DNA of 64,000 bases from Carallia brachiata. Lineage: Eukaryota; Streptophyta; Magnoliopsida; Malpighiales; Rhizophoraceae. Where the stretch lies: positions 9,292,095 to 9,356,094 of the forward strand of contig JADCRB010000013.1 of the NCBI GenBank assembly GCA_021464245.1, read 5' to 3'. The translations under genes and the position numbers were made by a program. Below the pieces are notes generated by a model, which saw nothing but the letters and a program-made list of their open reading frames with translations, was not told the origin of the DNA and made no database searches. Within the stretch, counting starts at the first letter, position 1; each line of letters starts with the position of its first letter. Shown in pieces: positions 35,458 through 61,391 of this stretch.

Positions 35458-37555
35458 CTGCAACAAGCACAGAAAATCAACTAAAATCTCACAGTGCAAA
35501 AGAATGGAGACGTAAATGATTGGAACTTCCAACAAAACTTGGCAACGCACATCAGATTAGATTCTTTTTGTATTATTGGTCCTAAGCCCCAAACCCAACA
35601 TGCTGCATATTTGCACTTAGGATTTATATGTCCGAATGGTAGATGAGCCTACTTTTTTCCCCCACTTATCTGTTTCTCTTTTTCATTTTTCATTATAAAT
35701 CGTAGTATACAAACAAAAAAAAAAATGTTTAATTGCCTGCATTTTGCCTCGTAGATTGGCAATGGGGCGGAGCCGGGTTTTGCAATCCCAATCGCTGCCC
35801 CATTTTAAACAAAAATTTAAGTTGAAGCAAAAATTTACCCCATATAATACAATCCCAAGAGCCGGGTTTCTCTTTTTCATCCTCACCCGATCCTCAACCA
35901 AAAATTTACCCCATATAATACAAATCCTTGTAAAAAATGGAACTTGAAGCAAAGTTGCAAATCACCTCAACAACATTCTATAAAAAAAATATATATCCTC
36001 CAGTATCCAAAAACACTAAACAACCCACTCTATAATATTAACCTACTCTAAACGCAAACCTTATAATAAGTTTTGATCTCACTCTATAACATTCCCTTGC
36101 CACATTTCTCTCGTGTCAATAACCAAAAATTTATTTTTGTCTAAGTTCATTTCCATGTGATCGTTAAAGTGTTCCAATAATAAAAAAAAAAAAATCCTCA
36201 CTGCATTATGTCAGATGTCAAGCGTAGTTCAAAAAAAAAAAAAAAACAGACACACACACAGACAAATTCCTCACTGCATTGTTTTAGTTCCGTTGTTCTA
36301 AATGTCTGCACTACAATGACCCCCCTGCATTAACGATAGAATTCAAGAATAGAGGTCCAGAAAATATCTATGCGATTATTAAAAAAAAAAATTATGACCA
36401 AGAAAAATATTTTAACAATTTTATCCTTGATAATATATATTATATAATGATCATAAAAGAGTAAAATAATATAAATAAAACAGGACAGAAATACGGCAAA
36501 GACTATCAATTCCATCTCTGTTTCCATCCCCACAAAAAAAAACAGGGATCGGGGATTCCCACCCTGATCTCCAGTCAAACTTAATTAACCCCATCTCTAT
36601 TGAAGCGGAGTTGAACGGATTTCTTTTCGCCATCCCTATTGCCTCATTTCTTTTGAAACGTCTAACAGCCAAGTGTCAACATCCTCAATAACCTATCACA
36701 TAGAGAAGCATGATAAAACCATAAATGTTGAAACTTAATTTCATTACAATACAAGAAGACTGAGAAACCACCAACCGAAAGTTGGTTCCCATGGATGTCC
36801 ACTCCTGGACATTGAAATCCCCGTTCCATGTTTAATGTACAAGCCATTTTTTAGGGTCACTCTATGAAATTAGCAAAGGTAATGTACTTTTTTTTTTGGG
36901 ATATATTAGGTAATGGAATCTGAATTAGAATTTATTTATTAGAAAAAAGAAAAATAAAAAAAATTTTTTAAAAAAAGGAAAAAAGAAATCCATGAAAAGA
37001 TTGGAACAAAAGACGTGTCCAACCCTTAAGAACGGATTTCAGGAGGAATTTCCTCACACATATGTGTTTTAAGTAAAATCAAAGCAATCACACAATTTGT
37101 TTAAAAGTATCTACTAGCCGAATATTTTTTTTGGATATACTAGGTAACGGAGTCTGAACTTTAGAATTCATTTATTATAAAAAGGGAAAATAGAAAAAAC
37201 TTTAAACAATTAGAGAGAAAAGAAAGCTTTAGAAAGCTTGGAACAAAATACGTGTCCAAACCCGCAGATTGGGTTATGGGAAGAATTTTACCATATAGAT
37301 ATATTTTAAATAGAATTAAAATAGTTACATAATTTATTTGAAAGTATCTAATAATGTATTTTTTTTTTCAAATTTAACCATTTTATAATATTACTTTAAT
37401 TTTACTTTAATATTATTTTAAACTTAAAACCTTCGTCAAATTTTTCTCTTTTTGAAATACTTTGTGAGAGAAAACCGAACCGTTTGCATCCACACAGTGC
37501 AGTCACACGCGAATGAGAAAGTGCAACTTATACCTAACTAAATGTAACCTCCTTA
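35458..37555. other. Array spacer, interrupted by the LTR retrotransposon
   Basis: It contains the recurrent segment at about 36650-36860 (see 6140-6400) and two tandem partial copies of a TAGGTAACGGAGTCTGAAC-like segment (about 36896-37070 and 37134-37300). A-runs lie near 36182 and 36232. No gene is supported. Confidence 0.5.
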
Positions 37556-37560
37556 ATAAT

Positions 37561-38365
37561 TGTAAACATCATTTTCAAAGAAAAAAAAAAAAGTCAAAAT
37601 TGGCGTTGCCGATTTCAAAGTCGGCAACGCCAACTTTGAAAAATATTTTCAATTAAAAAGATTTCTTTCACATGTGATGTTCACCTAGAAAAGGAATCCT
37701 ATAAATAGGCCCCTGCCCCCCAGTTCAAAATACATTCAGCAAATATGTAAACAGAAAAATTCAGAGAATTTGAGAGAAAAAGAAAATTTTGAAAATCTCT
37801 CAAGAAAATTTCTTCTTTTCTTACGTGCTTTTATTCTGCAGTATACTCTCCTAACTCCTTTTTGAGAGATATTTCAAGGGTAAGACCCAAAAAATTTGCT
37901 GTTTCCATTTCCAAAGTTATTTTTAGATTTATATTCTCCGATCGCCCTAGATCTGAATTTATGAGAATATAAATCTGAAAATATCAAATTACTACAAATC
38001 CAGCTGGGATTAAGCCTCAAACGGCCCTCAGCAAAATCCAGGCAGCTCATCCGAGAACAAGTCCCTTCGACCTTCGGTGAAATTAAGTCAGATCGGCTCA
38101 GATCAGGTCTCTGCGGTTTTTAACCGTAGTCAAAACGTCCAAATCAGATCCGGTTTCAGTCTACCCAGTTCAAGAAAAAGTTGTGGAATTTATTTCTGTC
38201 AAGATCACACTCGTGCAGCCCTTGACCGAGTCAAAAACGGAACACTAATCGGAGGATCTACGGAGATCGACCCCACGTAAATTTCCTTTCATTTTTACAA
38301 TTTTTATTTGTAATTTATTTTTGTATTTTCGAGTTTAATTTTTAGCTCGAAATTTACGCTTTACA
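37561..38365 (+). repeat. 5' LTR, 805 bp
   Basis: Nearly identical to 47011-47819; by eye there are roughly a dozen to fifteen differences. TATAAATAG at 37700-37708 is the likely promoter TATA box. A hairpin with 13-bp arms (37600-37612 and 37621-37633) lies near the left end. Confidence 0.95.
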
Positions 38366-38370
38366 AATTT

Positions 38371-38390
38371 TTGGCACGCTCAGTGGGACC
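38371..38390 (+). promoter_or_regulatory. Candidate primer binding site
   Basis: TTGGCACGCTCAGTGGGACC begins 5 bp after the 5' LTR end, at the expected position. I could not assign the priming tRNA. Confidence 0.6.
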
Positions 38391-38416
38391 ACTTCACCTC
38401 CCATCTCTTGTTCCTT

Positions 38417-38598
38417 AAAAAAAAAAAAAAAAAGAGGTAAAAGGGGAGCCGAGAGAAAAAAAAAAAAGAAGACAAAAAAAAAAGTAAAAAAAAGTAAAAA
38501 GAAAAAAGTAAAAAAAAAAGTAAAAAAGTAAAAAGTAAAAAGTAAAAAAGTAAAAAAAAAGTTAAAAAGAAAAAAAAAGTTAAAAAAAAAAAAAATTT
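38417..38598 (+). repeat. Purine-rich leader of the retrotransposon
   Basis: About 180 bp made mainly of A with GTAAAA, GAAAA and GAG words between the primer site and gag. It gives a spurious Phe/Leu-rich frame on the other strand (38380-38682). Confidence 0.8.
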
Positions 38599-38618
38599 AC
38601 AGGTGTTCAGCACATCAA

Positions 38619-39914
38619 ATGGCACCAAAAAAGTACAACTGCTGCCACAAAAAGAAGGCAACGGCTCCATTGCCTGCATCAACTACCCTACCTGGGTACG
38701 CAGGTCCAGAAACCCGGGGACGGACACAATTTCTTGCCGTCCAAACCCGACAAAATATCGAAATGGAGAGTCCACAGCTTGCCACAACAGGATCTCTCCC
38801 CTGACTCTCTTGCCGCATGGAGGAGTCGATCACCCACCCCGATCGAAGTCGGGGGCAACACGACGAAGCCTGCTCAACAAAATCCGACTCACACAGAAGA
38901 ATCAGAAGAGTTTTCTCCCCCAGTCTTTCCCAGAGCCTCATCTGTTGCCGTCATGATGACCAACACAACCAGCACAGAGGAAAGAATTTCAGAATTGGAG
39001 AACAAAATTTTGCAGCTGATCAGAGTCGTGGAGGAAAAAGATCAACAGATCGCGCTCTCAAAGGAAAAGCCCCGATCCAAGTTGATCCTGAAATCCGCGA
39101 GGAGCAACCATATCCACCCGGTTTCACTCCAGAAGCCACACCAGCCGACGTCTTCACTGCAGAAAAGCGACCAGGTAGTTCTACACAGCTGCCACCCTCA
39201 AATTCTGTAGTTCGCTATCTGTTCAACAATTGCAGGAAATGATAGCCAATACGATCCGACTGCAACAAGCTACATCCTTCCAAGGATCACAGATGTACGT
39301 CAAACCGTACACCAGACGGATCGAAAGTCTCAACATGCCTTTGGGCTACCAGCCGCCCAAATTTCAACAATTCGACGGACGAGGCGATCCCAAACAGCAC
39401 ATCGCCCACTTCGTTGAAACCTGCAACAACGCAGGGACTTATGGAGATCTCTTGGTGAAGCAGTTTGTTCGTTCACTCAGGGAGACCGCTTTCACCTGGT
39501 TCATAAATCTTGAACCAGAATCGATCGACAGTTGGGAACAGCTACAACGAGAGTTTCTCAACAGATTTTTCAGCACTCGAAGGACGGTAAGTATGATGGA
39601 GCTTACCAGCACCAAACAAAGAAAGGAGAGCCCGTTGTCGAATACATCAACAGATGGCGTGCCCTCAGCTTGGACTGCAAAGATCGCCTGACGGAGACTT
39701 CTGCCGTGGAGATGTGCATCCAGGGAATGCATTGGGAGCTGTTATACATCCTGCAGGGTGTCAAACCCCGAACTTCGAAGAACTGGCGACCCGCGCACAT
39801 GATATGGAGATAAGCATCCAGACTTCCGGAGGCACGGTTCCCATCCAGTTGGACCAGCAAGGGGGCAGAAGGGAGATTAAGAAACCCAACAGCTCCGGAA
39901 AAGGAAAGAAGTGA
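38619..39914 (+). pseudogene. Retrotransposon gag (frameshifted)
   Basis: Gag forms the particle that packages element RNA. The likely start is the ATG at 38619 (MAPKKYN). A coiled-coil-like stretch, ERISELENKILQLIRVVEEK, follows near 38980-39045. The capsid-type domain is clear from about 39350: KFQQFDGRGDPKQHIAHFVE, then FTWFINLEPESIDSWEQL. It carries on in other frames after about 39600 (EPVVEYINRWRALS). At least three frame changes are needed to read it from end to end, so it is broken. No intact zinc knuckle was recognised. Confidence 0.8.
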
Positions 39915-40599
39915 TGACTGTTGAAGCCGCACCAGTAAAAGTGGGCGCCAGGCTAAGGTAAATCCTCCGACCCAAATAACTCAGCCAAAACAACAGGAAA
40001 GGCGGAAGGTGACATTGCGAGAGTTGGAGCAGAAGCAGTATCCATTCCCGACTCAGACGTCCCCGACATCTTGACAACTCTGGAGGCGAAGCTGATCGAA
40101 CTCCCAGAGTGCAAGCGGCCGAATGAAAAGGATCGAGTCAGCGATCCGAGATTCTGCAAATATCACCGGATAGTAAGTCATCCAACCGAGAATGTTTCGT
40201 CCTGAAGGAGCTAATCATGAAGCTCAAAAGCCAGAATAAAATCATTCTGGACCAGGAAGGCGTAACCTCGGCAAACCAACCACCATCACTTCAAAACCAT
40301 CAGAAGAGGTGACACACCGTAAGGAGGAGCCGCTCGACAACAAAAAGTCGACAACGGAGAAGGTATATGAAGCTCTCCAAACCCTTCTCGCTAACCCTCA
40401 GCTGTTTATAGCTTTGCAATCAACAGAAGTGTGGCAAAATCAAGTCAGCAATACTCTCCAGACCTCAGCTGAATCAGCCATCAAATGATTCTAACTCAGC
40501 GAGGAGCAACAGAGGCCCAAAATCACGTCGGATGTTACTCTGCTATCTCATTTTCAGATGAGGATCTCCTGCTGGGGTCCAAACCCCACAATCGGCCGC

Positions 40600-41256
40600 T
40601 GTATGTATCAGGCTATGTGAAGAACAGAAGGTCGACGTATTCTGATCGACGATGGCTCAGCAGTCAATATTATCCCAAAATCCACCATAAAGGAGCTCGG
40701 CATCGGCATTGATGAATTATCAGACAGCCGCTTGATGATTCATGGCTTTAATCAAGGAGGACAGAAAGCAATTGGGATGATTCGCTTGGAGCTAACTATC
40801 GGTAATCTCACTTCTAGCACTCTATTTCACGTGATTGATGCACGTACCACATATAAGATGTTGCTAGGACGACCATGGATTCATGGAAATGGAGTTGTGC
40901 TCTCAAGCCTGCATCAGTGCTTCAAGTACTACAATGGTGGCGTTCAAAAGGTCAATGCTGACTTAAAGCCGTTCGATGATGCTGAATCACATTTGGCGGA
41001 TGCAGTCTTCTACACCGACACAGACAATCCGGAGATCATTCCATCAAAAGCTACTTGGACTGGGGGCATCCACAAAAAGGGAAAAGCTGTCGAAGAACCT
41101 GCCAATGCCAACCCCAGGCTCCAACAAATGAAAAGCTGCCACAGCCTGCTGAACTCGTCCGAAGGATGTTGCATCTTCAAGCTCCACTCCAGTCCTACGC
41201 TATGTGCCGAAGTCACGACGCTCAGAAGGTCAACCCCCTTTCTCTTATTGTATTGA
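40600..41256 (+). pseudogene. Retrotransposon aspartic protease region
   Basis: The frame reads RILIDDGSAVNIIPKST at about 40636-40686; the DDGSA at 40648-40662 stands where retropepsins have D-[ST]-G. The same frame continues through HGFNQGG and ends with KMLLGRPWIHG, the usual end of the fold. This domain is uninterrupted, but frame changes lie on both sides. Confidence 0.75.
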
Positions 41257-41747
41257 TCTTAAACAGGAGCAAGGTCATAGCCAACCCAAAACAAAGGAGC
41301 TGCACAACCTGAAGGAGACTTACACTCTGCCGATACCAAAGATTGAGCCGGTTTTGTCTCAAACCATTAAAAGGCTTCGTCAAACCACACACGGGGGCAG
41401 TCGAAGGCGGCTCACTTCCAGAAAGAAGAACACATGAAGGATTTGATCCTAATGCATACAAGCTTTTGGCAAAGGCGGGCTATGACTTCTCAAACCCGAG
41501 CACAATGGGTACGCTGCCGTCCACACATGGCGCTTCTCAAACATCACAGTCCCGACCTGGCTTAGGCTATCAGGAGAAGTCACCTGTGCGGATCACGCTA
41601 AAGAGCCGAAGCCGAGCAGCTGATGCACGTGCCATCACCACCAACCAAACAAGACAGGCTTATCCAGTCAAACAAAGAAGGTGAAGTCAGAGGTTCTGCA
41701 TTTCATGTCACAATTAGCGAGGAGGCTGAGTCGACTCATCAGGTGAA

Positions 41748-43171
41748 GTGAAGGAGGCTCCCCCGGAACTTGAAGATGGTGGCCAAGCAACTGTTGATGA
41801 ACTCAAGGAGGTCAATCTTGGCTCTCCGGAAGATCCTCGACCTACATTTGTAAGTGCTTTACTTACTGCAGAAGAAGAGCAAGAATATGTTCAGGTATTA
41901 AGTCAATACAGGGACGTGTTCGCATGGAGTTACAAAGAAATGCCTGGACTTGACCCAAAAATTGCGGTGCATCGTCTAGCAGTAAAGAAGGGTGTCGTTC
42001 TGTCAAGCAGCCACAACGACGGTTCCGCCCGGAACTCATTCCACAAATCGAGGAGGAGGTGAACAAGCTGATCAATGCGGCTTCATCCGAGAGGTCACCT
42101 ACCCAACGTGGATTGCCAACATTGTCCCGGTAAGAAAGAAGAATGGACAGTTGAGGGTATGTGTTGATTTTCGAGATCTTAACAGGCCTGCCCGAAAGAT
42201 GACTTTCCATTGCCCATAACGGAGATCACAGTCGATGCAACAACGGGTCACGAAGCATTGTCTTCATGGATGGTTCTTCAGGCTATAACCAAATCAGAAT
42301 GGCACCAGAAGACGAGGAGTTGACAGCATTCCGCACCCCAAAAGGTATATACTGCTACAAAGTTATGCCGTTTGGATTGAAAAATGCTGGCGCCACTTAT
42401 CAACGTGCTATGCAAAAAATTTTTGATGACATGCTGCACAAGATTGTAGAATGTTATGTTGATGACTTAGTTGTAAAGACTAAGAAGCGCAAAGACCACC
42501 TCGAGGATCTCAAGACAGTGTTCGAAAGACTTCGGAGGCATCAGCTCAAAATGAACCCTCTCAAGTGCGCATTCGGTGTCACATCAGGAAAGTTTCTTGG
42601 GTTCGTGGTGCGCCATCGTGGAATCGAAGTTGATCAGTCAAAGGTTGAGGCAATTCAAAAGATGCCTGAACCTAAAAACCTGCACGAGCTGCGAAGTCTA
42701 CAAGGAAAGCTGGCCTACATTCGCCGTTTCATCTCCAATTTAGCTGGGAGATGTCAACCTTTCCATCGGTTGATGAAGAAGGATGTCAACTTCGAGTGGG
42801 ACGAAGCTTGCAGCAAAGCCTTTGAGAGCATAAAGAAGTACCTTTCCAATCCACCGGTCCTAGGTGCTCCAATTCAAGGAAAGTCGTTGATTCTCTACAT
42901 TGCAGCGCAGGAAAGATCTTTGGGAGCCTTGCTTGCACAGGAAAACGAGCAGGGAAAGGAAGTTGCCCTGTACTACTTGAGCAGAACACTAAACGGTCCG
43001 GAGCTGAGTTATTCGCCCATTGAAAAGACATGTCTAGCACTGTTCTTTGCCATTGACAAGCTGAGGCACTACATGCAAGCTCACACGGTACGTCTCATTG
43101 CCAGAGCTGATCCTGTCAAATATATCTTATCAGACCAATCTTGTCAGGACGACTTGCCAAGTGGGCAGTAA
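41748..43171 (+). pseudogene. Reverse transcriptase and degenerate native RNase H
   Basis: A linker (41748-42062) is followed by RT in pieces: 41992-42219 gives TWIANIVPVRKKNGQLRVCV and DFRDLN, and 42266-43171 gives DGSSGYNQIRMAPED, the MPFGLKNAGATYQR motif and the catalytic YVDDLV (near 42455). Connection and RNase H-like parts follow to about 43130. In the native RNase H, the first catalytic Asp is replaced (ILYIAAQERSLGALLAQ), as is usual in Tat elements that carry a second RNase H. Frameshifts at about 42055 and 42215-42266 break the enzyme. Confidence 0.85.
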
Positions 43172-43329
43172 TCCTACAAAGCTACGACATTGTCTACGTG
43201 CCTCAAAAAGCAGTCAAAGGACAAGCTCTAGCAGACTTCCTTGCAGATCACCCTTCCGTCAGATTGGGAGTTCACAGATGATCTTCCAGATGAAGAGGTC
43301 TTTTACATTGAGCACTACCACCATGGACG

Positions 43330-43842
43330 ATGTTCTTTGATGGTGCAGCAAGGCGTGATGGTGCTGGTGCCGGCATAGTGTTTGTCACTCCTCAACGACA
43401 AATACTACCATATGCTATCATTCTCGGTGAGTTATGTTCAAATAATGTTGCTGAATACCAGGCTTTGATCATTGGTCTTCAAATGGCTGTCGATATGAAG
43501 ATTCCAACTATAGAAGTCCATGGAGATTCCCAGCTCGTCATCAACCAACTTACAGGATTGTATGACGTGAAGAAAGAGGACCTTGCGCCTTACCATCAAC
43601 GTGCTCGACAGCTAATGGATGAATTTGAAAGCATCACCTTGGAGCATGTGCCTCGACGAGAAAACACTCAGGCAGACGCGTTGGCTAACCTGGCACTTCT
43701 CTTGCAAAGTCAGAAATCCAGGCTACAGTTGTTGCGTATGCCAGAAATGGATAGTGCCAAAAGGATGATGAAGAAACTACAGCAGCCAACGCTGTATCTG
43801 TACGTCTCGCGGAGGACGAGATTGGCGCCAACCAATCATTGA
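43330..43842 (+). CDS. Second (archaeal-type) RNase H domain of the Tat element
   Basis: One uninterrupted frame carries the four acidic catalytic residues in order: FFDGAARRDGAGAGIVF (D), NNVAEYQALIIGL (E), VHGDSQLVINQLTG (D) and RRENTQADALANLALL (D). This type of RNase H, placed between the native RNase H and integrase, defines the Tat group; it degrades the RNA strand during reverse transcription. It is part of a polyprotein whose neighbours are frameshifted, so it is probably not expressed as designed. Confidence 0.8.
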   Translation: MFFDGAARRDGAGAGIVFVTPQRQILPYAIILGELCSNNVAEYQALIIGLQMAVDMKIPTIEVHGDSQLVINQLTGLYDVKKEDLAPYHQRARQLMDEFESITLEHVPRRENTQADALANLALLLQSQKSRLQLLRMPEMDSAKRMMKKLQQPTLYLYVSRRTRLAPTNH

Positions 43843-43849
43843 CTACCTA

Positions 43850-45035
43850 CAGCACGGGAAGCTGCCGAAGATCGTCGTCATAAGACAGAAATTCAACGAC
43901 GAGCTCCCCGCTTCATATATCTCAAGGATGCTCTGTATCGAAGGTCTTTTGATGGAGTTTTACTTCGCTGCCTAGCCAATGAAGAGGCAAAACAGGCTCT
44001 CACTGAAGCACATTCTGGTGTTTGTGGCGGACATCAATCGGGCCTAAGTTGCACTTCCAACTCAGAAGGATGGGATACTACTGGCCAACCATGGTACGTG
44101 ATTCATTGAGTTTGCTAAAACTGTCAAGCTTGTCAATTTCATGCAATTACATACATCAACCACCGGAGCCACTGCATCCAACTGTCTCATCCTGGCCCTT
44201 TGAAGCTTGGGGTCTCGACTTAGTGGGGCCCTTGCCAAAGTCATCCCTGGGTCACCTGTACATCCTCGCAGCAACCGACTACTTCTCAAAATGGGCTGAA
44301 GCCATTCCACTTAGAGAGGTAAAGAAGGAGCATGTTGCCAATTTCATCCGGACTCAGCTGATCTATCGCTATGGAGTCCCTCGATTCATCATCACTGATA
44401 ATGGTAAGCAGTTCTACAACAGCTTAATCGACAAGCTCTGCGAGAAGTTCAAGTTCAAGCAGTACAAGTCATCCATGTACAATGCCCCAGCAAATGGCTT
44501 GGCCGAAGCATTCAACAAGACCTTATGCAACCTGTTGCGGAAGGTAGTCTCTAAATCCAAAAGAGATTGGCATGACAGAATTCCGGAGGCATTATGGGCG
44601 TATCGTACAACTTACCGGACTCCAACACAGGCGACGCCATACTCACTTGTCTACGGTGTCGAAGCAATACTGCCGTTGGAAACACAGATTCCATCCCTGC
44701 GCATGGCTGTTCTGGAAGGACTCACACAGGAGGAGAATGCTCGCCTACGTCTGGATGAGTTAGAAGCCCTTGATGAAAGGAGGCTCGAAGCACAACAGCA
44801 ACTTGAGTGCTACCAAGCCCGGCTCACCAACACGTTCAACCGCAGGGTCCGCCCTCGATCTTTTCAAGTTGGAGACCTTGTTCTTGCAGTGCGACGGCCC
44901 ATCAACATGAAGCATCGGCCTGGTGACAAGCTTACTTCCAAATGGGATGGGCCATACCTAGTGCAGGAGGCCTATACTCACAACGCTTACATGCTCAGAC
45001 CAAGAAGGCGTCCGAATCGGCCCAATCAATGGTAA
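43850..45035 (+). pseudogene. Integrase
   Basis: The open frame 44022-45035 holds the catalytic core: WGLDLVGPLPKS (first D), FIITDNGKQF (second D) and ANGLAEAFNKTL (E), with WAYRTTYRTPTQATPYSLVYG after it. A C-terminal part with GDLVLAVRRP and KWDGPYLV follows. The upstream zinc-binding region is damaged: the CxxC half near 44120 lies out of frame. The frame ends just before an A-run. Confidence 0.85.
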
Positions 45036-45054
45036 ATCTGAAACAATATGTGAG

Positions 45055-45098
<44 letters not shown>

Positions 45099-45456
45099 AA
45101 AAATCAAAAAAAAGAAAAAAATCGGAAGTCCCGATCTGAAAGTCCAAGCGAAAACCCAAATCCAAAAGTCCAAACCCAAACACTCGACCCAAAAACCCAA
45201 ATCCAAAAGTCCAAACCCAAACACTCGACTCAAACCCAAATCCAAATCCAAAACCCAAAACCCAACCCAATTCAATTCCAAGCCCAAAACCCAAAATTCC
45301 AAGTTCAAAATCCAATCCAACTCCTGGCCCACATGAGTATAAACTGTGAACGGCCCAAAAATATAAAAGCAACGGAGGGTTTGAGTCTGAAACTCAGCAT
45401 CAGTCTCAACCGATCTTCACCAAACACCAGACCTTTGCTCCTCTGCCACAAGAAAG
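45036..45456 (+). repeat. A-run and CCAAA-rich low-complexity tract
   Basis: An A-run (about 45054-45093) is followed by about 190 bp of AACCCAAATCCAAAAGTCC-type repeats (about 45140-45330). It separates integrase from the captured homeobox sequence. It is not the plant telomere repeat. Confidence 0.75.
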
Positions 45457-46057
45457 ATGGAACCAGTTGCAGAACCTCAAGACAAGGGAGAAGAAAGTCG
45501 CCCCGCACAAGGTGGCAACCGACCATGGCACAACTGCAAATTTTGGAGGAAGTCTTCCACAACAATGGAGGTATTATGCCTATGCATCTCAGATTTACCA
45601 ACTTGTCTCACGATTGCGCCCACTCGGGGCAATCGAAGGAAAAAATGTGTTTTATTGGTTCCAGAATCGGAGAAGCAGGAAGAAACCAGCACTGAGAAGC
45701 TGATTTTTCCAAAGAACAGTCTACATTCCGATGGTAGATCCCACGGTACAAACTTCGCCCTCAAATGAAGCAGGTCCGAGTTCTCCACTGCAATGGTCTC
45801 TTCAGGTATCATCAAAGCCGTAGCCCATGGGAGCATGCATGCTGGTCCTGGTGGTCTTACGGAGTCAGCCAAGGGTTCATCCCTCCTAGTACTTAAGTCT
45901 AGGAGGACTTTTTCTAGCAGAAAGGAGTCATTCCGGCGAAACTTTGCCTCTCTTTTCAGAATATTCCGGCATCAACCAGCCGGAAAGCGACGTCAACATC
46001 ATCGGCCCACCAGACGAGGTCGAGCTTGACTTGGAGCTGCGCCTCGGGCCCCGCTAG
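45457..46057 (+). pseudogene. Captured WUSCHEL-related homeobox (WOX) sequence inside the retrotransposon
   Basis: WOX proteins are plant homeodomain regulators of stem-cell and organ fate. Three family hallmarks occur in order on one strand. Homeodomain at 45504-45690: TRWQPTMAQLQILEEVF, then in the next frame SQIYQLVSRLRPLGAIEGK and NVFYWFQNRRSRKK. WUS-box at 45941-45955: TLPLF. EAR repression motif at 46025-46045: LDLELRL, in the same frame as the WUS-box and followed by TAG (46055-46057). The IEGKNVFYWFQN third helix and TLPLF point to the WUS clade. A one-base frame change lies inside the homeodomain near 45580, another near the N-terminus, and an in-frame stop precedes the WUS-box, so it is decayed. 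It lies between integrase and the polypurine tract, within the target duplications, and so moved with the element. Confidence 0.8.
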
Positions 46058-46090
46058 GACGGCCGACAAGATAAGGTGCAACGACTTTGG

Positions 46091-46156
46091 CAGCACACGG
46101 TAACGACTTCTGCAGCACACGGCAACGACTTCTGCAACACACGGTAACGACTTTCG
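46091..46156 (+). repeat. Three 22-bp tandem repeats
   Basis: The unit is CAGCACACGGTAACGACTTC plus 2 bp, repeated at 46091, 46113 and 46135 with one or two substitutions. It leads directly into the palindromic G-box. Confidence 0.9.
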
Positions 46157-46168
46157 TGACACGTGTCA
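46157..46168. promoter_or_regulatory. Palindromic G-box
   Basis: TGACACGTGTCA is a perfect 12-bp palindrome with the CACGTG core recognised by plant bZIP and bHLH factors. It lies about 120 bp upstream of a TATA-like sequence (TGTATATATATC at about 46281) and 177 bp before an ATG in good plant context. Confidence 0.5.
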
Positions 46169-46344
46169 GCCGCTGCCTCTTTTGTCTCTTATGCAGGAAA
46201 AGGACGTGGAGGACCCTACCCGATTCTGCGTACCTTCTTTTTGACTTTTCAAAAAAAAAAAAAAAAAACTTTATCGTATGTGTATATATATCTTGCATTC
46301 CCGAATTGTAATACTCACCCCTCAACTCTTCTTTCTCAAAAGAA

Positions 46345-46659
46345 ATGGCTAGTCTCTGCACTTGTCTCAGGAAGTTCTTCGATCAAGAAGTTGGAGGCGC
46401 ACGAACTAAGAAAAGAAGGAGTAGTCTTTCTCGAGGGATCCCTAGAAACCCTCGAAACTCATTCTCCAACGCCATCGGTGTCATGGAGTTCCAACTACTC
46501 TCCTTAGTTCACATCTATCGCAGCGAGCCGAGAAGTTCTGATCATCCCTCTTGGATCTACAAATGCAGCGACGTGCAGGGAAGTTCCAACTACTCTCCTT
46601 ACGTCGAAGCAGATTCGGGAATCATCACCATAACCCGTCTCTCTGTGCGCAGGTCTTAA
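46345..46659 (+). CDS. Hypothetical 104-residue protein in the 3' accessory region of the retrotransposon
   Basis: The frame starts in a plant-like context (AAGAAATGGCT), about 55 bp after a TATA-like TGTATATATATC, and runs 104 codons: MASLCTCLRKFFDQEVGG, then a basic KKRRSSLSRG stretch. The repeated DNA phrase GTTCCAACTACTCTCCTTA (about 46488 and 46582) shows an internal duplication. I recognise no domain. It may be a second captured sequence or an accessory frame of the element; it could also be chance. Confidence 0.35.
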   Translation: MASLCTCLRKFFDQEVGGARTKKRRSSLSRGIPRNPRNSFSNAIGVMEFQLLSLVHIYRSEPRSSDHPSWIYKCSDVQGSSNYSPYVEADSGIITITRLSVRRS

Positions 46660-46994
46660 AGTTCTGTAGTTCTGGGTCTTCCTCATAGGGAGGTTCAAAT
46701 TCTTTGCCTACCGGATCATCCTCACCAGAGCTCTAGAACTTTAAGACATATAAAAAATCCTTTGCGGGTTATGGAAGCTCAAACGCACCTGGAGCCAGAA
46801 TGTCAATTTTTATATTGGCTGGGCTGCTAACTTTCTCAAGATCGTATCGGGTTCCTATTGCGATCCAACAACAGCAGGCATGGTCAAAGATAGAAGACTC
46901 CAAGATTCAATGTTCATCAGGACGTTTCCAAGTTTCAAACTGAACTTCAAGACTCGGTGCGAATCACGTCTGTAAAGTTTTTCCTTACCGACCC

Positions 46995-47010
46995 TTGAAG
47001 TGGGGGCATT
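46995..47010 (+). promoter_or_regulatory. Polypurine tract
   Basis: TGAAGTGGGGGCATT-type sequence ends directly at the TG of the 3' LTR, where plus-strand DNA synthesis is primed. Confidence 0.8.
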
Positions 47011-47819
47011 TGTAAACATCATTTTCAAAGAAAAAAAAAAAAGTCAAAATTGGCGTTACCGATTTCAAAGTCGGCAACGCCAACTTTGAAAAATATTTTC
47101 AATTAAAAAGATTCATTTCCCATGTGATGTTCACCTGGGAAAGGAACCCTATAAATAGGCCTCTGCCCCCCAGTTCAAAATACATTCAGCAAATATGTAA
47201 ACAGAAAAATTCAGAGAATTTTGAGAGAAAAAGAAAATTTTGAAAATCTCTCAAGAAAATTTCTTCTTTTCTTACGTGCTTTTACTCTGCAGTATACTCT
47301 CCTAACTCATTTTTGAGAGATATTTCAAGGGTAAGACCCAAAAAATTTGCTGTTTCCATTTCCAAAGTTATTTTTAGATTTATATTCTCCGATCGCCCTA
47401 GATCTGAATTTATGAGAATATAAATCTGAAAATATCAAATTACTACAAATCCAGCTGGGATTAAGCCTCAAACGGCCCTCAGCAAAATCCAGGCAGCTCA
47501 TCCGAGAACAAGTCCCTTCGACCTTCGGTGAAATTAAGTCAGATCGGCTCAGATCAGGTCTCTGCGGTTTTTAACCATAGTCAAAACGTCCAAATCAGAT
47601 CCGGTTTCAGTCTACCCAGTTCAAGAAAAAGTTGTGGAATTTATTTCTGTCAAGATCACGCTCGTGCAGCCCTTGACCGAGTCAAAAACGGAACACTAAT
47701 CGGAGGATCTACGGAGATCGACCCCACGTAAATTTCCTTTCATTTTTACAATTTTTATTTGTAATTTATTTTTGTATTTTCGAGTTTAATTATTTTAGAC
47801 TCGAAATTTACGCTTTACA
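47011..47819 (+). repeat. 3' LTR, 809 bp
   Basis: Partner of 37561-38365. It ends TTTACA at 47819 and is followed by the ATAAT target copy. Confidence 0.95.
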
Positions 47820-47824
47820 ATAAT

Positions 47825-48963
47825 TAGTGTGAGAATCTTTTTTAGGAAAAATAATTTTTTTTGAAGTTAAAAAATTTTATTTTTTAGTGTATACTATACA
47901 AAATTTAAATTTTTAAATTTTAAAGTAACATTTATCTAATTTTATTTTATTTTTTAAAATTTATAAATATAATTATAATAAATTAATAATTGATTATACG
48001 TTATTAAGTTTGTGCAGCGCAAATATGTGGCTAATAAGTATGGGTATAAAACCTCTCAATATCATATTAATAACGCGCCATGGTGAAGGACAACAGTGAC
48101 CGTTAACATTGCGGGTTATACCATGATGACACGCGTTATCGCAGCACGCTGTGGTATAGTGCCAATTGGGTTATGGCCCTCTTTTCCTATTGCTGTCGCC
48201 GTTGTGATGTAACAGCCAGGCCTCCGTGCAAAGGCTCAAAAATAACAACACCAGTTAAATTTATAAAAAATATATAATTAATTTAATAATTTAATTTTTT
48301 AAATTTTAATATATTTGTTATAATTTTATATTTAGATCTGCATGTTAATTTTGTGACTATTTATATGTATATTATATAATTTTTTTCTAAATAAAATGTA
48401 ATTCATTGTAAATAGCATTTTTTTTATTAGCTAGTTGGTAGTAGAGCGTAAAGTGTGACGTAGAGGGATGAAAACATTCAGGAAGAGAGAGTGCAAAGAG
48501 CGAAAAGGTACACATAAATTGTGGAGACAAATGAGAGAAAATAATATATATATATATATATTTATTTAATTGGTATTAGAGTTATTTTTAAGATTAAAAA
48601 CTTTAAATTTAAATATAAGGCAGAGTCAATTAATATAAAAAAAAAATATATGAAGAAAGTCAAGAGAAAATAAAAAAAATATTGAAAAAGAGGTTATAAA
48701 ATAAGTGAAGAAAGACGAGAATCCAAAGTCCAACTATCGTAATTTTTTTTTATGTGGGTCTACACCATGAATTATTCGTTAACTTTCTCCGTATAGAGGA
48801 TCACATTAAAATATTATAGCGACCACACGAATCTTCTTCATTCTTGACCTTAATATTAATAAATTTTAAATTTATTACTGTACTATGATATAAATTTTTG
48901 TAAACTCTGGAATCACCCAAGCCATGTACCAACTATTGTAATCTAAAGAAACAATTTTTTCTA
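47825..48963. other. Array spacer, right side of the retrotransposon insertion
   Basis: It contains the landmark CCATGATGACACGCGTTATC near 48120 and GTTGGTAGTAGAGCG near 48434, plus a TA microsatellite near 48545-48560. No gene is supported. Confidence 0.5.
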
Positions 48964-50130: not shown

Positions 50131-52465
50131 TTAGTCCAAATCATCAACTGATGCAACCTCCTCCTCCAGCAGTTGAAACGCATCAACTTCTGCAAAGTAA
50201 GCCTTCTGCTGCTCAATGAAATCATGCGGCAGGTCATGGTTGATATTATTGGTCGCAGCTTGTGCGTGGCACTGCTTCTGCAATGTAACAGGAATTCGAA
50301 GTTCAGCTTGGTAACTGCTTATAAGGACTCTAATAGCAAATGGCGAGAATTTATGAAATCATGAGAACAAATCAAATCTAACCAATACAAACTATTTTAT
50401 GTTCTAGCAAAGAAGCTGGAATGCAAGACCATACAAACTGACTGCCAAGCTTTGTGCGTCTTAGTTGTACACATAGCAAGAGAAGTTAAAACTTTAAAAT
50501 CAGCTGGCTGCTGTGCTTGGGTACTCTCATAGAATATAACCCAAATATCTCAGCAGTCTAGGGATTAACTAGAGCAAAATTACACAGGTCACCACAAACT
50601 GGATTGTATACAATTCTTCCCACACATATTATGAAAATGATTTTGTCAATAAAGGTAAACACCATGCTAGACAGCTAAAAGACAAAAAGTGAAGTTAGAA
50701 GCCGCAATAATATCAAAAGATGGCAAAATGACGAGAAACTAAATCCTCAAACCTTTTTCGGAGGTTCTGTTGAGGACTTGAATGGACTGGAACTCCACTG
50801 AATTTATCCCTACATTGGGCAAGGCCAGAGGGCAAACAAGATTATATCAATCAACTGAGTGGACTGATATAAATGCCAGATTAGAATGTATGCTTTACAT
50901 GAAGTTAAGATCTTTGGCCACGGCCCATGATATAAATGAGAAAAGAGCTATACACACTAGATACATGAAACACGGAAATAAGGATCGGAAAAGAACAGTG
51001 ACTATTCCAAATCTAAGCAGTAGATGAATTACAACTGCCAAGTTGTCCTCGATTTTATGCCATGATATTTAAGGAGAACCAGACTGCAGATTTATCGATG
51101 ATAAAAATGCTACTAGGGAATGAAATAAGCTACAAAATGAGCATGAAAGGGATCCAATGGGTAGAAATCCCGAATACAATTTTCCGAAGATTTATAACAA
51201 GTCATACATAGGAATTGAAATAAAACCAGCTGGCAGTGAAGAGCACTAATTCCAAGAACCATTACTAAGATGGAGAACACTTGCGCAATGCATTTCACAC
51301 TAAAATTCTCATCAATCTCCACATTTATACACCCTCTGCGTTAATTGTTGCAGAGACGAAAAACTAGCGAATGATATTACCCTATAAACTGCGGGTTAAC
51401 TGCAGGTACACAAGTGGCAAGTGCAGCAGTGGTTTTCCGTATGCTCTTTCTTTTACCAGCCGACTTACTTCTAGTATAAACAGAGCAGGGCTCAAATATT
51501 TCATGACTGGCAATATCTAATGCAAATAAGACAGGCATTAGGGCGCAAATCACACCATAAACAAAGACAATGTAAACCACAAGGATCAGCAACTCAAAGC
51601 TAGGAATGCCATCCATTATAACTAATATCTCACAAGTCACAAACCATGATACCAGCAAACCAGTCACCAACATGAAAGATATATTTCCACCATGTCGTGA
51701 ACCCCCAAAAGAGGGAAAACCAGAAAGGAATACATAAGCATTGTAAACTTTTCTGTGGATGAAAGAAATATTAGTCTATTCTTATAGAATAACTAGGAAC
51801 AAGAAGATTTTCATTCAACTCTTCGATTGGAGAACACAAAAATTCATATATCAAAAATATTGCACCCATATGATACGAAGAGAAGCAATTTCTACTACTT
51901 CAGCAATAACCTGAAGCGTAATTGTTCTGTGAAAGAAAAACAACAAAAAAAAAAAAAAACAAAATAAGACGACCCAGAAGAGTGATTAATCTAAGACGAG
52001 CAAAAAACGGAAGGAAGCCGTCAGAAGAAAAAATAATGATACATCGGATTAAAGGGGAGAAACAAAACAATTAACTCCATCGGCTACGCCAACAATTCCC
52101 AGAGAAGCGAAACCCAAGAGAAAAAATAAAAAAAAGCAGATTAAAAAAGAAAATGATGCAGCAGAAATAATGGTAAAATAAAACGAGTGATTGAGCAACA
52201 AATAAGAGGCCACAGGATACAAAACCCAAATTCTAAAACCTAAATCAACAAAGAAGAAGAAGACCCGAGATTCCCCCAACTCCAATTGAAAAACCTACCC
52301 AAACTTGTAGTTTAAAACATCAATTAAAAGAGGGAAAAAAAAAAGGCTACCAGCAGGAGAAGAAGAAGTAATCGAACGAGAAGGCGTCGAAGCACAAGAG
52401 GGAACCACAAAGGAACTAGGGTTTGAAGTAATGTTGTTGTTGGGGAAGAGTCTGCATTCTTCATT
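50131..52465 (-). pseudogene. Sororin-like gene fragment (cohesin protection factor), copy 2, five exons
   Basis: Five exons can be chained with consistent phases: 52351-52465, 51381-51516, 51299-51335, 50753-50797 and 50131-50277 (stop at 50131-50133). Together they give about 158 residues. Key parts are a Ser-rich N-terminal stretch, EPCSVYTRSKSAGKRKS, a short basic EPPKK, and the C-terminus LPHDFIEQQKAYFAEVDAF followed by EEEVASVDDLD. The last part matches the conserved sororin C-terminal domain as I know it (DFIExQRAYFAEIDAFELxEEEV), which docks on cohesin. The frame lacks a start: upstream of 52465 is a TAG, then element end. All five exons remain open, so decay is slight, but without its N-terminus it is a captured fragment. 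It could still be transcribed, possibly as antisense or siRNA. Confidence 0.75.
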
Positions 52466-52736
52466 CTATCCAGCCTCATTTGCTTTTCACAGTGTAGACG
52501 ACGGCACATTCGTAAATTTACTGTAACTCTGTAACTTTTCTCTGCTTTTCCCTCCGTTTGGAGAGAGCTTTCGTACATTACGGTGAGGCACTACTTTCCC
52601 CTCACTTTCGCCTCTGATTCCTTCTTTCGCTTCTCCAAACGAACGAAAATGCTTTTTACTGCATAATTTCCTTTCCTCTTCTTTTCTTTTCTCTGCTTTC
52701 CTTCCACTCCAAACAGAGTGTAAGTGTCTGTCTTTA

Positions 52737-53260
52737 GGGTGTGTTTGTTTGAGGCAAATCCAATTTCTGGATTTGGTTTTCACCACTTTTCAGTGTTTGA
52801 GGTCAGGAATTTGAAAGATTTTGAAAAATCAAATTTTGGGCCATTGGATGAAAAGTGCATGTATTTATGGAAAACAACGTTCGCTCGAATTGAGCGAACG
52901 TCATTTTTCGTGGAGAAACATAGGGAGTACTGTTTTGATACTGTGCTAACACTATTTACAAAGTAAAAAATAATAAAATAATAATATTTTTTACTGTTTA
53001 CACAGTAAAAAATAATAAAATAATAAAATTTTTACTATTTATACATTAAAAAATAAGAAAATAATAATATTTGTACTGTTTGCACTGTAAAAATAATAAA
53101 ATAATAATAAAAGATTTCATTTTATATAATTTCACCAAATACAGAATAATATTTTCAGCACCACAGTCAAACACCGTAATTGAAAATAAAATTTTAGAAT
53201 TTTATTGTCCTCAGTAAATGATATTCCAGAATTTCATTTTCGTCAACAAACAAACGGACT
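52737..53260. mobile_element. MITE of 524 bp with internal palindrome and tandem repeats
   Basis: The ends GGGTGTGTTTGTTTG and the complement of CAAACAAACGGACT are imperfect inverted repeats. TTA flanks both sides (52734-52736 and 53261-53263), and TAAGTGTCTGTCT also occurs on both sides. Inside are a hairpin with 10-bp arms (52877-52886 and 52892-52901) and about four copies of a TTTTTACTGTTTACACAGTA-like unit (about 52955-53110). It is absent from block 1. Confidence 0.7.
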
Positions 53261-53415
53261 TTAAGTGTCTGTCTAGAAAATTTATTTCTTATATAAAGTT
53301 ACATCATTGGCACAGCCACGCCTTCTCGCCAGGCTTATGGCTTACAATTATTGCTATTAAATTTTCTAGACTCCCCAGTAATTGATTTTACTAGGAAACT
53401 GCTTTTATTCATCTT

Positions 53416-53648
53416 TCATTCATGTACAAATGTTTGTTTATGCAGGCATATACAAACATGGAAAACGCAGTCTGCTGGGCCTGTGCCGAAGGGACCACAT
53501 TTTATATGAGAGCAATCATCATCATTCTTACATTTCTTCGTTTTCGTAGGGACTTCTTCAGCTTTTGGCACTGCGGTCACTGTAACACATGCCAATAGTT
53601 TCATTTGTTAGTTACTATCAAACAACTAGTTAGAAAAAATTAATCACC

Positions 53649-53679
<31 letters not shown>

Positions 53680-53728
53680 AGAGAGACTAACAAAGTGAGC
53701 CAATCAAGAGAACAAATAAGAAGGCCAT
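53416..53728 (-). CDS. NCR/defensin-like cysteine-rich secreted peptide, copy B (intact)
   Basis: Exons 53692-53728 (MAFLFVLLIGSL) and 53416-53579 are joined across a GTTAGTC...TTACAG intron that holds a CT microsatellite. The product is 66 residues: a signal peptide ending near AVPKAEE, a Lys/Thr pro-part, then six cysteines as C-x5-C-x4-C-x9-C-x4-C-x-C (CKNDDDC ... CVFHVCIC) and the tail LHKQTFVHE. By family it should be secreted, with disulfide-stabilised folding; antimicrobial or signalling roles are possible but not shown. It is the closest paralogue of the dead copy A, differing by a six-base insertion that adds a Thr-Lys pair. The TATA box TATAAATA is at 53837-53844. Confidence 0.75.
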
Positions 53729-53836
53729 TTTGAAAGAAGAGTTCTCCATATCTTTGGGTACGCCTATAGCCTGTAGTCGCAAAATTAAGATGAGAATAGT
53801 TTTCTTGCAGGTGCATTTTGGGAAAGCTCATCTGAG

Positions 53837-53844
53837 TATTTATA
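53837..53844 (-). promoter_or_regulatory. TATA box of peptide gene B
   Basis: TATAAATA on the minus strand, 109 bp upstream of the ATG, the same spacing as in copies C, D and E. Confidence 0.65.
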
Positions 53845-53849
53845 GGCCT

Positions 53850-55247
53850 AAAAATTTAATGGCTTTAAATCTGAGGCAACAGAAAGGATACCCACATTTA
53901 TTACAATTTAAAACCAAAGCAAGAGAGAAGATTAAATATGTCTAATTTTGTAAATAATTGTTAATGAGTGTCCCAATATACTTTATAAGAAAATTTTTAA
54001 TATATCTACTATATTATTATTTTTAATCAACAATTCAACGATTTATATTACTTTATTATTATTTTAAAACTATTTAAATTAAATCGTCAAGTTTTTTTCA
54101 TGTTAGAATAATTTAGTTCTGCTTAAATACGTTAGAGCTCCACTACAAGGTGTAACTCAGGTAGTAATAAATTGGTCATTTAATCCATCCAGAGTCATCT
54201 AACATGTTATCTATTTTTATTTTTTTTCAAATTATCTCCTTCGGTGAGTTATCTTACTTTGATTTCACTTTGATCTCATCAAACTAATGAATATTTCCAA
54301 GTATCTCCCAACAAAATTAATGTATTCACGTCTCTCAAGAGACAACTCAATTGTTAACAACCTAGATCTCTATCTCTAAGAAGATAGTATGTGATTTATC
54401 AAAATGGGCTTTCGCATTTGTCACAGAATTTATCTCATAAATAGATAGTTTATCTTTTTTTTTTTTCAATTGAGTCATTTAACGAGTTATATTTCTTTAA
54501 TTTTAATTTGACCTCACCTAACAATTCATATTAAACATTTTCCAACAAATTAAAGTGTTCAACATCTCAGTTGTTAATAACTTAGATCTCGATCTCCAAA
54601 AAAAAAAGATAGTATGTGATTTATAAGAATGAGCTTCCATATTTATCACATAATCTATCTTATAAATATATTACATTAAAAACATAATTCTTCTATGCAA
54701 TAACATTACGGTAATACAAGATACTTTTTTTGGGTTAATATCTAAAAAAATCATGATCTTTTGTATATTAATAAATATAACATCACTTTTAATAATTTAT
54801 AATTTAGACTCTGTAGAAATTTTTTCTAACAAATTTACCACGTCGTCAAGTTTAATAATCATTTTTTACATCTGACGTGAATTTTAGTCACCATGTTTTT
54901 TTATTATATGTCAACATATAGTTCGCATCATCGAAACAAGTTATTACTTTTGATAGATTCTGTCTATCAAACTGCACAGGATAATAAATTTATTAGGAAA
55001 AGTTCTTACAAAATCTAAATTGTGATTTTTAAAAATCATGTTATATTTTTTAATTTACACAAAAAAAATCATGATTTTTTTATATGTATTAACCTTTTTT
55101 TACTTTTATTTAATATAGTAGTTTGAGCACATTAGATTTTTGGTTCATAAATTTTTATTTATTTATTTTTAGTTAATTAATTATACAATATGTTTACATT
55201 ATTGTTGCTCACTGACAAAAGAAACACTCCAGAGAGAAACTTATCAC
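53850..55247. other. Array spacer without genes
   Basis: Partner of 2880-3845 up to about 54820, then sequence deleted from block 1. AT-rich; nothing coding is seen. Confidence 0.5.
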
Positions 55248-55255
55248 ATGTCCCA

Positions 55256-55732
55256 CAAGATTGTCAGAATCAGACCGGTTATCGAACTGAAAATATTAGT
55301 GGGTTAAGGTTCAACCAGTTGAACCGGTCGAACCGGTATTTAATAATATATATGTGTATAAAAGTAATTATAAAAATAATATTTATAAATAGTGATTAAA
55401 TATTAATTTTTCTAATTTTAAGGATGAAATTGAAATTTTTAATAGATTTAGGACTAAATTGAACTTTTAAATTATAGTTAATGCTTAAATTATAATTTAA
55501 ATAACATTTGAGGTCAAATTGTAATTTATGAATTTTTTAATTTTATTGGACCGATCCAACCGGTCCGATTTTCACCGATTTTTACCGGTTTTGACCGATT
55601 CTTGACCGATTTTTTCCAGTTTTGACCGGTCCGAGTCACCCTTCGAAATTTACCAAAACCGACCCGGACCACTGGCCAATCCCCGGTTCAATCAGTCCGA
55701 CCGATCAGTCCGGTCCGGTTCTGACAACAGTG
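55256..55732. mobile_element. hAT-type MITE (same family as 15274-15751), 477 bp
   Basis: Flanked by ATGTCCCA (55248-55255) and ATGTCTCA (55733-55740), an 8-bp duplication with one mismatch. The ends CAAGATTGTCAGAATC and GGTTCTGACAACAGTG match the family, with ACCGGT-rich subterminal repeats. Confidence 0.8.
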
Positions 55733-55740
55733 ATGTCTCA

Positions 55741-57153
55741 TGCAAAAGGAGATCACATGCTTAGTCCCAAAATGCCACATCCACATCGTAGTATACAAAA
55801 AATGTTATTGTTTAATTGCCTACATTATGCTTCATTTTCTTTGAAAAATTCTAACAATCGAGTTTCAGTATTGTCAATAACTTATCTGATAGAGAAGCAT
55901 TATAAAATTATAAATAGTTAATATAGAAAAATATCACTAATTTTGTATAAAATAACAAATCTAATACATACTTTAAAAAATAATAGTTTATTCCTCTTTA
56001 ACAAATATAACACGCAATAGTTTCATATGAACAAAGTTCGTCAATTTCAATGACAGATTTATAAAAATATATCTGTTTCGATAACATAATAATTATAAAT
56101 GTTAGTGTTTGGTGATGTGTATGATTGTCACATCATCGAAACATGTAAATTATGTTTAAAAAATTTCACGACGTATTGATCTATTACAAAAAAATTTAAA
56201 GACGGATAAATTATTATTTTTTAAAATTAATATTAAATTTATTAATTTATGTAAAATCTATGATACGTTGTATATTAACTCAATCATAAATGTTGAAACT
56301 TCATTTCATTACAATGCAAGACGACTAAGAAACCACCGACTGAAAGTTGGTTCCCACGGACATCCACTCCCGGACATTAAAATCCCCGTTCTATGTTTAT
56401 TGTCCAACCTTTTTTTTGGGTCACTCAATGAAATTAGCAACGGTAAGGCAGTTTGTTTTTGCATTTTATTTTGGACATATTAGGCAATGGAGTCTGAACT
56501 TAACATTTAGTTTATTAGAAAAAATGGAAAATGAGGCCGTACAAAGATTGGAACAAAATACGTGTCAATTCATCGAGAACGAATTTCAAGAAAAAATTTT
56601 CCGGATAATTGAATTTGAAGTATTATTAAAATGCTTATATAGTTTCTTAAAAGTATTTAATTATTTATCTTTTTTTAAATTTAATTATCTAAAATTATTA
56701 ATATATCAATTCTTTGTATATCAATTCTTTGTCAATTATTAATATAAACGTGTTTTATTTTTTATTATTAAAAAATAAAACACGCTTATATTAATATATC
56801 AATTCTTTGTATATCGCTATCTATAGAACAAATGAGAGCCTATTGGTTTAAAGTTTATGTGACCTATTGGTTTATATCTTTTTTTTTTTTTACAACTATT
56901 GGTTTATATCTTTAAAATGTAATTTTTTACACACTCATTCTCTCTTCCATTCAAAAACTTGGCACAAAAGGCAAAGTTAACAAAATTTATTTCTTATATA
57001 AAGTTCCATCATTGATACAGCTACGCCTTCTCGCCAGGTTTATGGCTTACAATTATTACCATCAAATTTATTAGACTCCCTAGCAATTGATTTTACTAGG
57101 AAATTGCTTTTATTCATCTTTTATGCATATAGGAAATTGCTTTTATTCATCTT
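55741..57153. other. Array spacer without genes
   Basis: It contains two pieces of the recurrent segment (about 55805-55915 and 56285-56420), separated by AT-rich sequence. At about 56700-56810, TATCAATTCTTTGTATATC words repeat, and AAACGTGTTTTATTTTTTA meets its inverted copy. The 3' flank of peptide copy G begins near 56930. Confidence 0.5.
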
Positions 57154-57435
57154 TTATGCATATACAAATGTTTGTTTATGCAGGCATATGCAAACATTTA
57201 AAATGCAGTCTGCTATGTCTGTGCCGAAGGGACTCACATTTTATAGCAGAGCAATCATCATGATTCTCACATTTCGTCGTAGGCACTTCTTCAGCTTTGG
57301 GCACTGCGGTCGCTGTAACACATGCCAATAGTTTCATTTGTTAGTTACTATCACATAACTAATTAGAAAAAATTAATCACAGAGAGAAAGAGACTAACAA
57401 GGTAAGCCAATCAAGAGAACAAATAAGAAAGCCAT
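57154..57435 (-). pseudogene. NCR/defensin-like peptide gene, copy G (one-base insertion)
   Basis: The ATG at 57433-57435 opens MAFLFVLLIGLP, and exon 2 begins at 57312 with the family's acceptor. The frame is open through the first three cysteines (CENHDDCSAIKC). It then carries one extra base (TGTGAGTCCC where intact copies have TGTGGTCCC) and loses the last three cysteines, which persist in the next frame (CILNVCIC). The usual upstream block is cut by the retroposon starting at about 57541. It is probably dead. Confidence 0.8.
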
Positions 57436-59359: not shown

Positions 59360-59362
59360 TTA

Positions 59363-60127: not shown

Positions 60128-60155
60128 TTAGGCTTTTTGCTCTTTTTTTTAGCGT

Positions 60156-61237: not shown

Positions 61238-61391
61238 GTCCTTTAAGGGACAGTCCAGTGGTCAGAGTTCAAGTTTTTATTTTAAAGGTTTTGATTTCAA
61301 ATTTTAGAAAAAAATGAGTGAGATTTATAAGAAAAGAGAATTATTTTCATCGTATAATTCGACCTAATAAACTTATAAGTGAAAAAAAAAA
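61238..61391 (+). mobile_element. SINE-like retroposon (partner of 5977-6127)
   Basis: The same insertion in the partner block, with diverged body and flanks AATATTAACGT and ATATTAATGT and an A-run tail. Confidence 0.55.

Follow-up and report, generated by a model that had tools for sequence, protein, structure and literature searches.

A WUSCHEL-type homeobox gene carried by a Tat-type LTR retrotransposon family of Carallia brachiata

In Phalaenopsis, Tat/Ogre-like elements carry an ORF for a 2-ODD (AlkB) protein, and a screen of 121 angiosperm genomes reported LTR elements with B3, YgdH, 2-ODD and further domains; YgdH, which is found in LONELY GUY proteins and associated with cytokinin activity, was reported in LTR elements of Citrus (PMC9289625). 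Section 12 of the same paper names no homeodomain among these domains, and the word is absent from its main text, which reports a dual RNase H across the Tat family (PMC9289625). In Retand elements the region from pol to the 3' LTR, 2,933 to about 6,560 bp long, holds antisense ORFs for TRP28, a predicted DNA-binding protein; in the available part of that text, the survey of 63 clusters (ORFs of at least 600 bp) gives no sense ORF of this region with a known domain (PMC11963269). Host gene sequences also lie within the LTR element Bs1 of maize (PMC7264820). As for the WOX family, the modern WUS clade is defined by the WUS box TLxLFPxx, and a survey of four Euphorbiaceae listed 59 WOX genes, the word retrotransposon being absent from the available part of its text (PMC9280045). 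An EAR-like motif is reported in the WUS and WOX5 subgroups (PMC5977200).

Here we confirmed the presence of a WUSCHEL-type gene inside a Tat-type element of Carallia brachiata. A first reading of this DNA knew of no description of such a capture, and our search, which covered open-access literature, likewise found no LTR element of a plant described as carrying a homeodomain or WOX gene; this is not proof of absence.

The element and its WOX sequence in the window

The window, i.e. the whole stretch of 64,000 nucleotides that was analysed, corresponds to C25:9292095-9356094 of an assembly of 337.5 Mb. The element and the WOX sequence within it have the following features (WOX sequence between integrase and 3' LTR).

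37561-47819, + strand: Tat-type Ty3/gypsy element (LTRs, target-site duplication and Pfam domains)
37556-37560: left target-site duplication, ATAAT
37561-38365, + strand: 5' LTR (TG...CA), 805 bp
39230-39691, + strand: gag piece (Retrotrans_gag, Pfam)
42266-43171, + strand: reverse transcriptase and first RNase H piece (RT_RNaseH_2/RT_RNaseH, Pfam)
43330-43842, + strand: second RNase H (RVT_3, Pfam)
44022-45035, + strand: integrase (Pfam)
45362-45368, + strand: TATAAAA, 95 bp upstream of the WOX start, candidate own promoter
45457-46057, + strand: captured WUSCHEL-type coding sequence, frameshifted
45507-45581, + strand: N-terminal part of the homeodomain, first frame
45584-45700, + strand: C-terminal part of the homeodomain with recognition helix NVFYWFQNRR, second frame
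45938-45955, + strand: WUS box, ETLPLF
46025-46045, + strand: EAR-like motif LDLELRL, followed by GPR and a stop at 46055-46057
46080-46153, + strand: 22-bp tandem array, 3.4 copies, 3' of the WOX stop
46997-47006, + strand: purine-rich tract preceding the 3' LTR (by eye)
47011-47819, + strand: 3' LTR (TG...CA), 809 bp
47820-47824: right target-site duplication, ATAAT

The Pfam domains of the element are arranged in the order gag, reverse transcriptase, two RNase H and integrase. The second RNase H after that of the reverse transcriptase is as in the Tat family, and the gag-RT-RH-INT order, the TG...CA LTRs and the 5-bp target-site duplication agree with it, the latter features being common to other Ty3/gypsy elements too. 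TRP28, which characterizes Retand, gave no match in three antisense ORFs of this decayed copy, nor in 10 of its 12 antisense stop-to-stop stretches of at least 45 aa. The integrase, the reverse transcriptase and the WOX alignment had no confirmed relatives in the viral and prokaryote collections. Between the two LTRs, 805 aligned bases show 15 substitutions and 2 gaps (K2P 0.0189), giving an age of 0.73 or 1.35 million years with assumed rates of 1.3e-8 or 7e-9 substitutions per site per year, respectively. The pol region is frameshifted, homologous proteins mapping to three frames at 42446-45036.

A large tandem duplication of host sequence (17023-22546 and 23269-28886) is 94-98% identical, and another of about 770 bp (58588-59363 and 59356-60131) is 99% identical. 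Two long broken stretches, 1-8667 and 51030-64000, have 85-96% identity and enclose further repeats, and this pair looks like a segmental duplication. When the joined flanks of the element (37100-37560 plus 47825-48450) were compared with the duplicated stretches near 6.4 and 61.7 kb as candidate empty paralogous sites, the similarity was not clean to the junction.

The sequence at 45457-46057 is a complete WUSCHEL-clade coding sequence with MEP start, homeodomain, WUS box, EAR-like motif and stop. A frameshift near 45582 divides its homeodomain in the window copy, and other copies of the same genome have it in a single frame. A profile of 126 WOX proteins was run on all 3362 six-frame open stretches of at least 12 aa in the window. 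Over profile positions 26-59 it scored 46.6 bits and over positions 1-35 it scored 20.4 bits, the two matches lying in neighbouring frames at 45507-45700, while the runner-up stretch in the window reached about 9 bits. As a control, 200 random 2-kb sequences with the neighbour-base frequencies of the element yielded 20638 peptides, the highest score among them being 8.5 bits. The window copy also matched the Pfam Homeodomain (E=2.1e-6) and the WUSCHEL structure 6RY3 (E=1.8e-9), and the Pfam EAR match had E=0.022 only, under the Pfam cut-off. The pattern of a WUS box, then L.L.L and then a stop, written after the motifs had been seen, occurred once in the window on the forward strand and not on the reverse strand; 3000 kb of order-2 Markov sequence contained no instance of it.

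The homeodomain is of the WOX type. The WUS box reads TLPLFS in the window copy, TLPLFP in several open copies and ILPLF or TLPLFL in others, and the EAR-like motif close to the stop reads LDLELRL or LDLELHL. A 201-residue query of the joined pieces returned 14 proteins among 96 candidates, all with the Pfam homeodomain and none above 53% identity. A profile search matched 1102 proteins and listed the best 120 of them; against the 126 fetched WOX proteins the best identity of the window homeodomain was 54%. The earlier note had claimed a WUSCHEL-type homeobox sequence, with homeodomain, WUS box and EAR motif in this order between the integrase and the polypurine tract inside intact target duplications, and both C-terminal motifs followed by a stop, i.e. 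nearly a whole WOX gene. All of this stood in the profile, Pfam and motif tests and in the ATAAT on both sides, and the gene runs from start to stop.

Copies of the element-borne gene across the genome

A DNA search of the own genome with the 601 bases gave 1214 candidate places, and in each of the 40 that were scored (window included), all 601 bases matched at 94% or more. A homeodomain search gave 1347 candidates, of which 150 were scored and all were above the Pfam cut-off, many of them tied near 49.5 bits with an equal length of 183 bp. Both totals are first-look candidates, host genes being included in the 1347, and are not a copy number. Two sets were taken for comparison: the DNA-ranked set of 29 copies besides the window, and the homeodomain-ranked set of 60 rows near 49.5 bits in list order. 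With 7 overlaps between the sets, 83 distinct copies were fetched including the window. Fourteen further places of the homeodomain list comprised nine of the captured type and five host WOX genes, and L006 was a sixth host gene.

An integrase stands upstream of the WOX sequence in 29/29 DNA-ranked copies, the aligned integrase pieces being 97.5-99.2% identical, and in 56/60 homeodomain-ranked copies (match over 300 bases; the other four had no such match in the fetched stretch). LTR sequence lies downstream in 29 of 30 rows (DNA-ranked set plus window), the exception being L032, with none in the fetched stretch. At all five 3' LTR ends checked, the adjoining flanks resemble neither one another nor that of the window copy, therefore these copies are separate insertions and the WOX gene moved together with the element. 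The claim of the earlier note that the element mobilised the WOX sequence was thus borne out: in related insertions, to which the note had pointed as a check, the homeobox lies within the element. In scale and age the event goes beyond a one-off transduction. We read the WOX sequence as an old capture, which now belongs to an amplified family as a standing gene and is no peculiarity of a single copy. That the element captured and amplified a WOX gene is, in our judgement, close to certain.

Four copies (L101, L102, L103 and L112) are more divergent captured variants, in which the recognition helix is preceded by EEKN or ends in NRRNRKK, and they suggest older subfamilies.

Many copies are still readable. 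From the start position, taking no account of the start codon itself, a frame of 200-219 codons is open in 32/60 homeodomain-ranked and 9/29 DNA-ranked copies, and the other 28 and 20, respectively, have no such frame. An MEP start with 195-215 residues is present in 21/60 homeodomain-ranked copies, and an MEP start with LPLF and LELRL in one frame in 7/60, this strict count being low mainly because many copies read LELHL. Among the 21 full-length copies the EAR-like motif is LDLELHL in 11 and LDLELRL in 7, with three single variants, and the two main forms may mark subfamilies. TATAAAA occurs within 160 nt upstream of the start in 27/29 DNA-ranked and 59/60 homeodomain-ranked copies, at a distance of 93-99 bp, mostly 95. 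As the copies are related, this conservation is by descent and possibly also by use, and the TATAAAA is a possible own promoter of the WOX gene.

Constraint, kinship and alternative explanations

The window homeodomain has kept 21 of 23 family-invariant residues, compared with 11 of 39 other positions (Fisher p 1e-6). Neutral drift to the same identity kept a mean of 12 of the 23 and a maximum of 18 in 2000 simulations, and 0/2000 reached 21. The homeodomain thus diverged under constraint, be it in the host or in the element. Within the DNA-ranked set, the homeodomain had 6 nonsynonymous and 9 synonymous alleles against site opportunities of 129:48 (one-sided binomial p 0.0075), a test that rests on 15 alleles and is less biased than the homeodomain-ranked set. 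The tail of the same copies had 39 nonsynonymous and 14 synonymous alleles against 270:108 (p 0.69), and homeodomain and tail differed at Fisher p 0.028. Integrase alleles common to at least two copies were 1 nonsynonymous and 15 synonymous (p 9e-8), and those of single copies 18 and 16, respectively. The homeodomain-ranked set gave 2 nonsynonymous and 18 synonymous homeodomain alleles, a count that favours conservation because the set was picked by homeodomain score. By NG86, 200 random pairs of its 21 full-length copies gave 0.048 for the homeodomain and 0.65 for the rest.

The stretch KNVFYWFQNRR is identical in 29/29 and 60/60 rows (89/89 rows, 82 copies). Identity to one reference copy was found for the WUS-box stretch in 23/27 DNA-ranked and 46/56 homeodomain-ranked ungapped rows, and for the EAR stretch in 24/27 and 20/56, the latter difference being apparently mostly the R/H variant. 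Another stretch, WSWWSYGVSQ, lies between the homeodomain and the WUS box (L075 ORF) and was identical to the reference in 28/28 DNA-ranked and 56/60 homeodomain-ranked ungapped rows. Allele counts and motif identity together show that the DNA-binding part is constrained and the rest weakly or not, the tail being almost neutral. From these sequence comparisons, the WOX gene has probably been retained by selection in the element family.

A first alternative is that the gene was captured once, is useless to the element and hitchhiked on a successful master, so that the low divergence of the homeodomain would reflect recent shared descent. The neutral-like tail and the many broken copies, including 10/29 DNA-ranked copies with a gap within the homeodomain relative to the reference copy, are what a passenger would leave. 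However, the homeodomain is at most 54% identical to the fetched WOX proteins and still has 21 of 23 family-invariant residues, which is unlike neutral drift; its alleles are less often nonsynonymous than the site opportunities would give; and the homeodomain has acquired synonymous changes, yet its recognition helix is the same in every row. We consider such a passenger unlikely.

Kinship bears on a second alternative, in which an already divergent host WOX gene was captured recently and all constraint was exerted in the host before capture. The tree placement agreed with the WUSCHEL-type assignment of the earlier note: in a 60-row homeodomain tree the window copy falls with the WUS clade and has a long branch (1.55). 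In a 32-row tree with four captured variants and six host WOX genes, the captured sequences form one clade (100/98), which joins the WUS clade at 95/87, within or beside it as far as the sixty-odd columns tell, on a branch of 1.27. Against a late capture, no homeodomain above 54% was found among the 126 fetched proteins, the captured protein has 50% identity to the genome's two WUS-like genes in the part that could be matched, and the captured clade has internal divergence. The best fetched match of these two host genes was a Hevea protein at 76% and 83% (best 120 of 1102 listed), which, taken by itself, would suggest a host in or near Euphorbiaceae. A recent capture is therefore distinctly improbable.

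In the two host genes the homology ends shortly after the homeodomain, like an exon end (by eye), whereas the open captured copies are uninterrupted from the homeodomain to the stop and have no intron, which suggests that a processed (intronless) transcript was captured. The idea of an intron inside the WUS homeobox was rejected, the homeodomain being one open stretch in the genome's own WUS-like genes.

A third possibility, a separate WOX retrocopy inserted in the window element after its integration, could draw on the A-rich runs on either side (45055-45121 and 46251-46268). It was refuted by the related copies, which have the same neighbours in the same order; moreover, there is no flanking repeat of at least 8 bp around 45100-46420 except A-rich words, and the LTR divergence is too low to leave time for 46% homeodomain divergence inside the window copy, so that this reading has hardly any probability left. 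Chance resemblance is refuted by the WOX profile with its random-sequence control, the Pfam and WUSCHEL structure matches and the motif-pattern test, and its probability is negligible.

Possible role and comparison with known systems

Our reading is that the gene was captured long ago and that the family has kept it as an accessory gene, the function of which we infer from sequence. A Tat-type ancestor would have taken up a processed WUS-clade gene between the integrase and the polypurine tract, and the element would then have amplified together with it. The accessory gene would be a sense ORF, possibly driven by a TATA promoter of its own, and would encode a DNA-binding protein of about 205 residues with WUS-type repression motifs. 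Capture followed by retention appears likely to us.

The unaltered 203-aa product of one copy matches WUSCHEL 6RY3 at E=2.7e-18. Its predicted structure has three helices with block-mean pLDDT of 92-94 at residues 21-70 and an overall mean of 61, and the tail, predicted with low confidence, is probably disordered. The best 11 Foldseek matches of this structure were WUS and STENOFOLIA homeodomains, led by those of WUS in complex with TGAA, TAAT and G-box DNA. The WUS box and EAR motif of WUS-clade proteins recruit TOPLESS-type corepressors. The captured protein would be made, enter the nucleus, bind DNA and recruit corepressors, and most likely it would act as a nuclear regulator that adjusts how strongly the element, or else host genes, are transcribed in meristem cells. 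WUS-type DNA motifs showed no enrichment in the LTR and were absent from the 421 bases upstream of the WOX start, so these counts give no support for a particular target.

The germ line of plants arises late, from shoot meristems controlled by WUSCHEL. The benefit to the element could thus come through transcription in shoot stem cells, the source of the germ line, and this stem-cell role we offer tentatively. A more specific version, in which the element-borne WUSCHEL acts on the shoot stem-cell niche by being expressed in the gamete-forming lineage or enlarging it, seems doubtful; if it were true, the YgdH domains in Citrus LTR elements would be a second, convergent case of uptake of a meristem regulator. 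LTR retrotransposons of plants are known to contain host genes, but a master regulator of development present in complete form, amplified and still under constraint goes beyond such cases, and it offers a direct route to asking how retrotransposons reach the plant germ line. Genome-wide WOX surveys may also pick up or mask transposon-borne members.

With WUSCHEL and the WUS-clade WOX proteins, the captured gene has in common a homeodomain with EGKN, a WUS box and a C-terminal EAR-like motif, and it begins with MEP like several fetched WUS proteins. It differs from them in homeodomain identity (at most 54%, window copy against the 126 fetched), in having NRRSRKK instead of NHKARERQ, in its shorter length, in the open copies without intron and in the EAR motif (LDLELRL or LDLELHL). 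Bs1 is a low-copy chimera of gene fragments, unlike the Carallia brachiata element, which carries a whole coding sequence and is amplified. Both have host gene sequence inside an LTR element (PMC7264820). As in Retand, an extra ORF lies between pol and the 3' LTR, but here it is a sense ORF with a homeodomain in a region of 1,975 bp, and the antisense ORFs scanned have no TRP28 (PMC11963269). The 2-ODD elements of Phalaenopsis are similar in being Tat-nested Ty3/gypsy elements in which a host-type gene was taken up and amplified and its domain kept, but their gene encodes an RNA demethylase, whereas that of Carallia brachiata encodes a homeodomain regulator (PMC9289625).
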